From contig JAIYAZ010000005.1 in the NCBI GenBank assembly GCA_027488755.1, positions 1 to 38,986 on the forward strand: a DNA stretch of 38,986 bases, read 5' to 3'. The stretch comes from Verrucomicrobiaceae bacterium (GTDB lineage Bacteria > Verrucomicrobiota > Verrucomicrobiia > Chthoniobacterales > JAATET01). Numbering within the stretch: position 1 is the stretch's first letter; every line of letters starts with the position of its first letter. Position numbers and translations under genes: made by a program. The notes under the pieces were generated by a model that made no database searches, was not told the origin of the DNA, and saw only the letters and a program-made list of their open reading frames with translations. This document shows positions 19,728-24,008 of this stretch, in pieces.

Positions 19728-20633
19728 ATGGACCGATTCACCACCTACCTCCTGGCGGGAATGGCGGTGCTGCTCGCGACGGCGGCCAGCATCGCGTATT
19801 TCTCCCGCCCGCAGGAGGCGGCCGATCCCTCCCATTCGGCCCCGCCCATCCCCTCGCCGGCCCGCTCGCCCTCCCCGTTCTCGCCGCCCACCACCGCCGC
19901 CAACGTCGGCCAGATCCCCGTCAGCCCCGGCTCCCCGCTCGCCACCCCCTCCCTCCTGCTCTCCGCGTCCGCGCCCACGTCCGTGGTGCCCGCCGCGCCG
20001 ACGCCCGTGCCGTGGACCCCCGTCAACCCCGGCCAGGTGCAAACCCTCGTCTACCCCGGCTTCACCGTCGTCTACTCCCTCACCCTCGGGAACCCGCTCG
20101 TCGCCCAATACGCCATGGTCGGCGGCGCCAAACCCAAACGCTACCCGCCCGCCGTCGCCGTCAAAACCCCCAACCCCCGCCTCATCACCGCCGCCGGCTA
20201 CAGCCGCGCGCAGATGGCTCTGGGCAGCTCCATCGGCCTCTACTTCGGCAAAACCTCGGTGCCCAACACCGAGCTTATGACCAACATCGCCCCCATGGCC
20301 CCCGCCTGCCTCCAAGGCCCCTGGGCGCAGTTCGGCCCCCTCGAAGCCCGCTGGGCCGGCGAGTTCGGCTGGATCGAAATCGTCGCCGGCACGATCTTCG
20401 CGAGTCCGCCCACGCAGGTCGGCGGCATCGTCATCCCCGTCGCCTTCTTCCGCGCCTACCGCCGCTCCTATGGCGATGCCCTCGCCTTCATCATCCCGCA
20501 GACCGCCTCCGGCACGGACCTCAAGCCCTACCTCACCAGCATCGCGACCATCGAGGCCGCCACGGGCATGGACATCTTCCCGAACACGCTCGACCTCAGC
20601 TCCCGCGAGCAGGTCGCCCCCGCCGTCTGGTAG
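19728..20633 (+). CDS. Membrane-anchored NUC-fold protein lacking nuclease active-site residues
   Basis: A 301-residue protein: a membrane helix at 5-25, a Pro/Ser/Ala-rich linker (about 30-105), and a C-terminal domain that aligns by eye with DNA/RNA non-specific endonucleases (Serratia nuclease type). The DRGHxAP block appears as YSRAQMALGSS (158-168), followed by TNIAP and CLQGPWAQFGPLE (194-206), the counterpart of SNxxP and LNQGxWxxLE. The general-base His is Gln162, the first Asp of DRGH is Ser159, and the magnesium-binding Asn is Leu195; the Arg (160) and a downstream Glu (206) remain. It is therefore probably not a nuclease but a binding protein built on that fold, facing the periplasm. 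It is divergent from recQ and converges with argB. The family call is from motif order only. Confidence 0.6.
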   Translation: MDRFTTYLLAGMAVLLATAASIAYFSRPQEAADPSHSAPPIPSPARSPSPFSPPTTAANVGQIPVSPGSPLATPSLLLSASAPTSVVPAAPTPVPWTPVNPGQVQTLVYPGFTVVYSLTLGNPLVAQYAMVGGAKPKRYPPAVAVKTPNPRLITAAGYSRAQMALGSSIGLYFGKTSVPNTELMTNIAPMAPACLQGPWAQFGPLEARWAGEFGWIEIVAGTIFASPPTQVGGIVIPVAFFRAYRRSYGDALAFIIPQTASGTDLKPYLTSIATIEAATGMDIFPNTLDLSSREQVAPAVW

Positions 20634-23934: not shown

Positions 23935-24008
23935 CGGGCTGTGGCTCAGCTTGGTAGAGCGCTTGAATGGGGTTCAAGAGGTCGTGGGTTCGAATCCCGC
24001 CAGCCCGA
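23935..24008 (+). tRNA. tRNA-Pro (anticodon GGG)
   Basis: A complete cloverleaf. The acceptor pairs CGGGCTG (23935-23941) with CAGCCCG (24001-24007). The D arm is GCTC/GAGC with GG in its loop. The anticodon stem CTTGA/TCAAG encloses the loop ATGGGGT with anticodon GGG at 23969-23971. The T arm is GTGGG/CCCGC with TTCGAAT in the loop. Discriminator A73 and a first pair C1-G72 agree with proline identity. CCA is not encoded; a run of six T follows at once. The tRNA reads CCC (and CCU) codons, which fits the C-rich coding here. Confidence 0.95.

Follow-up and report, generated by a model that had tools for sequence, protein, structure and literature searches.

What is left of a membrane-anchored nuclease when its fold is kept and its active site is not? 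The question is raised by a gene on the plus strand of the window, i.e. the whole stretch of 38,986 nucleotides that was analysed, whose product is labelled a DNA/RNA non-specific endonuclease by family profiles. As a statement of function, this label is almost certainly wrong. We consider the protein to be a pseudo-nuclease, in which a NUC fold has been reused for a role other than cutting, and put the probability of this reading at roughly 85%. The gene would offer a sequence-based case of an extracytoplasmic nuclease fold that was stripped of its whole active site yet retained, and, on the bacterial side, an equivalent of the inactive nuclease-like domain found in ENPP proteins.

Gene and domain architecture

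The reading frame is open over 301 codons plus stop, and the choice of start codon is backed by an MDRF N-terminus common to all four congeners (the window protein and its counterparts in three further genomes of the genus, which belongs to the uncultured Verrucomicrobiota). PF01223 (Endonuclease_NS; 33.4 bits against a cut-off of 23) is the sole Pfam domain in the 301 amino acids. The gene is divided as follows:

19728..20633, + strand: whole gene, encoding a predicted membrane-anchored protein with a putatively catalytically dead NUC (Endonuclease_NS) domain; 301 amino acids plus stop
19734..19802, + strand: predicted N-terminal membrane helix, residues 3-25
19806..20009, + strand: poorly conserved Pro/Ser/Ala/Thr-rich linker, residues 27-94
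20037..20630, + strand: NUC-fold domain, residues 104-301

The N-terminal membrane helix and the Pro/Ser linker had already been described in the initial annotation, and both are seen in the 301-residue frame. In the full-length model, pLDDT is ~80 over residues 1-20, and the Kyte-Doolittle maximum over 19 residues is 1.86; membrane association itself is a prediction from helix 3-25. Since most intact relatives in the class have a membrane helix as well, the anchor was probably inherited rather than newly acquired. The linker, modelled with low pLDDT and only 27-33% identical among the congeners, has a higher Pro and Ser content than its counterpart in most intact relatives.

The C-terminal domain is clearly homologous to NUC. 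While a phmmer search of the PDB with the single window sequence gave no match, a profile of intact relatives did match, and comparison by hhalign of a profile of the four congeners with a profile of 14 intact class relatives returned a probability of 99.8% (E 5.6e-28). AlphaFold2 (AF2) modelled residues 95-301 with a pLDDT of 93.3 and a pTM of 0.90 from 49 aligned proteins taken from the window, the congeners and viral contigs. Most of the 49 are active-type viral-contig relatives, which steer the model towards the family fold; with an alignment of only three sequences, pLDDT was 36.8. The closest solved structures are EndoG (VIA Z 22.1, rmsd 2.2 over 181 residues), EXOG, Serratia nuclease (Z 21.7) and NucA. 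The Serratia-nuclease (NUC) fold proposed at the outset is therefore borne out by the Pfam score, the profile comparison and Z-scores of ~22, and the structure prediction that had been suggested as a check yielded this fold rather than an unrelated one. The likeness to the enzymes of PF01223 thus lies both in the fold (Z ~21-22, rmsd 2.2-3.4 over 178-194 residues) and in sequence homology.

Loss of the active site

Where the enzymes of PF01223 carry a DRGH box with the general-base His, a Mg-binding Asn and a catalytic Glu at W+4, i.e. four residues after the Trp aligned with W199, the window protein has none of the three. The positions concerned are:

20202..20213, + strand: SRAQ (residues 159-162) where DRGH is expected; ARGP, SAGT and ARGP in the other congeners
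20283..20285, + strand: Asn186, aligned counterpart of EndoG Asn163 (EndoG roles from PMC2653514)
20310..20312, + strand: Leu195 in place of the Mg-binding Asn (Serratia Asn119)
20334..20336, + strand: Gly203 in place of the catalytic Glu (Serratia Glu127, W+4)
20343..20345, + strand: Glu206, conserved in the genus, not the catalytic Glu

Across 33 aligned intact relatives from the class, identity is 100% at each of four positions: the Asp and the His of the DRGH box, the Mg-binding Asn and the W+4 Glu. These positions read S/A/S/A, Q/P/T/P, L/L/L/L and G/A/A/A in the four congeners. More broadly, the consensus residues D159, H162, N166, Q178, Q190, N195 and E203, each identical in 33/33 intact relatives, are all changed in every congener; N186 and W199 are retained in all four.

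These alignments agree with the initial annotation on the SRAQ box, with Gln162 in place of the His, and on Leu195 standing where the Mg-binding Asn would be. Its further statement that Arg160 stays holds for three of the four species, the fourth having Ala, and its assignment of Glu206 as the retained active-site Glu has to be abandoned. Multiple and profile alignments place a one-residue deletion after W+4, and in the model the helix is continuous from before W199, so that Gly203 takes the W+4 position; the Glu206 column holds Ala, Ser or Ile in six intact relatives. The loss of the active site is hence more complete than had been described. As to conservation among close homologues, Leu195 is invariant and Gln162 is not, which leaves no evident role for Gln itself, and none of the four congeners has either the His or the Asn.

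In human EndoG, Ala in place of the His, or of either Asn, alone cuts kcat more than 1000-fold (PMC2653514). Because the window protein has lost the His, the Mg-binding Asn and the Glu together, we infer that nuclease activity is very unlikely. By descent and predicted fold it belongs to PF01223, yet it lacks the residues by which a DRGH nuclease is defined.

Distribution in the genus and constraint on the domain

The protein was found in all four species of the genus examined, and Asp, His, Mg-binding Asn and Glu are missing in each. The counterparts in the three further genomes are 51-52% identical and share both the MDRF start and the terminal Trp. Trp is likewise the last residue (window 20628-20630) in nearly all intact class relatives (L006-L053) and in both dead groups, the window-type one and a second one (L161-L181) described below. 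A search for an intact NUC copy elsewhere in the genus genomes found none, the one NUC-type gene per genome being the dead one, and no relatives of the window-type dead group were found in viral contigs.

The tree unites the four congeners in a single clade (support 100/100) whose stem is long, at 2.64 changes per site, while its inner and end branches measure 0.17-0.29, a shape that points to rapid change first and constraint afterwards. Rough dN/dS values (Nei-Gojobori, 197 codons, six pairs) are 0.12-0.30 for the domain versus 0.34-1.11 for the linker; as dS lies at 1.1-3.05, near saturation, in a sample of four species, it is the contrast between domain and linker that can be trusted. Judged from these values, the domain is under purifying selection and not decaying.

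A probable role other than cutting

According to the most economical scenario, the ancestor would have been a membrane-anchored nuclease of the NUC family, a kind still common in the class, whose general base, Mg ligand and catalytic Glu were lost in the ancestor of the genus. After a phase of fast change, a new role would have brought the sequence under purifying selection. The protein is predicted to be anchored in the inner membrane by its N-terminal helix, with the flexible linker holding the compact NUC-fold domain beyond the membrane, most probably in the periplasm. In that compartment, the domain is more likely to serve as a binding module or scaffold for a protein or some other ligand of the cell envelope than to work as a nuclease. 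That it binds or scaffolds something other than nucleic acid is a view we hold with moderate confidence.

Nucleic acid is a competing candidate ligand. Like a silenced entry nuclease of the EndA/NucM type, a dead NUC domain could still bind periplasmic DNA or RNA and so serve uptake or adhesion, and active relatives of the fold do bind nucleic acid. The predicted pI of ~9 in all four congeners and the invariant, clade-specific R242/Y244/R245/R246 fit this view. Yet the charges are few (13-17 Lys and Arg among 197 residues, net +3 to +6), and Arg160 of the former DRGH box varies. ComEC is encoded in all four genomes, although it is also present in 10 of 14 control genomes and so carries little weight, and no competence gene was seen adjoining the gene. 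Taken together, retained nucleic-acid binding appears unlikely. As for the initial proposal of a nuclease fold reused for binding, the reuse of a dead fold is well founded (loss in all four congeners, a confidently predicted fold, purifying selection), while extracellular DNA, one of the ligands it had named, gained no positive support. A protein partner, the other, is possible; the gene context points to none.

The fold might instead have been redesigned into another enzyme, with a different active site built on the NUC scaffold. Invariant polar residues are numerous in the genus, e.g. K135, T147, N180, T181, N186, E206, E217, D250 and R293, and several of them are clade-specific changes; invariance across four sequences is, however, weak evidence, no new catalytic motif can be recognised, and the vacated catalytic positions hold Ser or Ala, Gln, Pro or Thr, Leu, and Gly or Ala. 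We regard such a redesign as quite improbable. Loss of a whole active site can also be an early sign of decay, but the frame is open in four species, with the same length class, MDRF start and terminal Trp, and the domain has a dN/dS well below 1. A decaying pseudogene or an assembly error is thereby ruled out for practical purposes. Also considered was a regulatory heterodimer in which the dead protein would be the silent partner of an intact NUC paralogue, which is unlikely because no other NUC gene exists in the genus genomes.

Comparison with known systems

A dead domain of the NUC fold is already known from ENPP1-3 and autotaxin, and that of autotaxin has been described as inactive (PMC6826961). 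The likeness to the window protein lies in the NUC fold, with the predicted structure matching the nuclease-like domain of autotaxin at a Z of ~20. In ENPP1-3 and autotaxin, however, the dead domain sits C-terminal to a phosphodiesterase, whereas the bacterial window protein has it as its sole domain, preceded by a membrane helix and a linker. Going by its residues, the window protein would be furthest from a nuclease in the way it works, and nearest to the inactive domain of autotaxin, ENPP1 or ENPP3 without the phosphodiesterase. Among bacterial proteins, EndA and NucM combine the NUC fold with membrane association (PMC6384898), the latter being predicted for the window protein. Unlike it, they keep DRGH and the Mg-binding residues and cut DNA. 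A literature search for dead bacterial NUC proteins, or for NUC together with msrA, found none, a weak negative since subscription papers lay mostly outside the search.

Gene neighbourhood

The window gene sits between recQ, which runs in the opposite direction, and argB, which runs towards it (neighbours were named by eye from translations). The other species have rsmH and a rhodanese-type protein, a sufS/sufU/transporter cluster with an HtrA-like protease, or an RND pump in these places. As the neighbourhood differs in all four species, it gives no lead to a partner. msrA was looked for beside the window-type genes and was not found within the flanks examined at the four loci. Elsewhere in the window, a tRNA-Pro (ggg) gene adjoins argC (23935-24008, + strand); the long reading frames that overlap it on both strands are probably not genes.

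A second dead group in the class

The class search drew 384 genomes. All 41 intact-type class proteins examined keep the GH of DRGH (one as DVGH, one as NRGH). Single variants of the box are DVGH (L047), NRGH (L138) and, from a viral contig, HQGH (L059). Six further class proteins lack this GH, all of them from one other family, f21; an intact copy is present as well in two of the genomes concerned. A family-wide search gave matches in 24 of 44 f21 genomes, and in the 20 full-length dead-type proteins aligned, Asp, His, Mg-binding Asn and Glu are missing throughout.

The f21 group (L161-L181) shares with the window group the membrane helix, the NUC domain without Asp, His, Mg-binding Asn and Glu, and the terminal Trp. 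It differs in its Lys/Arg-rich N-terminus and in lying beside msrA. The latter adjoins the dead NUC gene in 21 of 21 well-covered loci (a GCFWC motif in all, PF01625 confirmed in two), compared with none of 32 intact-class loci within the flanks examined. In the six loci measured, msrA lies directly upstream and co-oriented, with gaps of 9-39 bases (L190:6798-8471, L191:5699-7259, L192:5835-7568, L193:6058-7643, L194:6641-8329 and L195:6579-8285). The msrA-linked group therefore supplies a testable partner, which the window gene alone does not.

Whether the two groups lost their active sites once or twice was addressed by profile comparison and by tree tests. Set against the intact family, the f21 profile gives an E of 7.4e-38, as opposed to 4e-14 with the window group; the window group, too, resembles the intact family more than it does the f21 group. 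This profile comparison leans towards two origins. In the tree tests, a common origin was neither shown nor rejected, with an AU p of 0.47 and the groups joined in 14% of bootstrap trees. The f21 group probably, though not certainly, represents an independent loss. More speculative, and in our estimate rather doubtful, is the wider proposal that non-catalytic envelope proteins arose from membrane-anchored NUC enzymes of Verrucomicrobiota on two or more occasions, one of them in this genus and another, with MsrA as partner, in the other family. If true, the bacterial NUC fold would be a recurrent source of periplasmic adaptor proteins.

Two minor observations concern the f21 loci. In three of the six loci read, MsrA begins like a lipoprotein, as judged by eye, and in two f21 genomes the msrA-linked dead NUC gene appears broken or in pieces (L183 and L187, G551:C21; L182, G546:C13).
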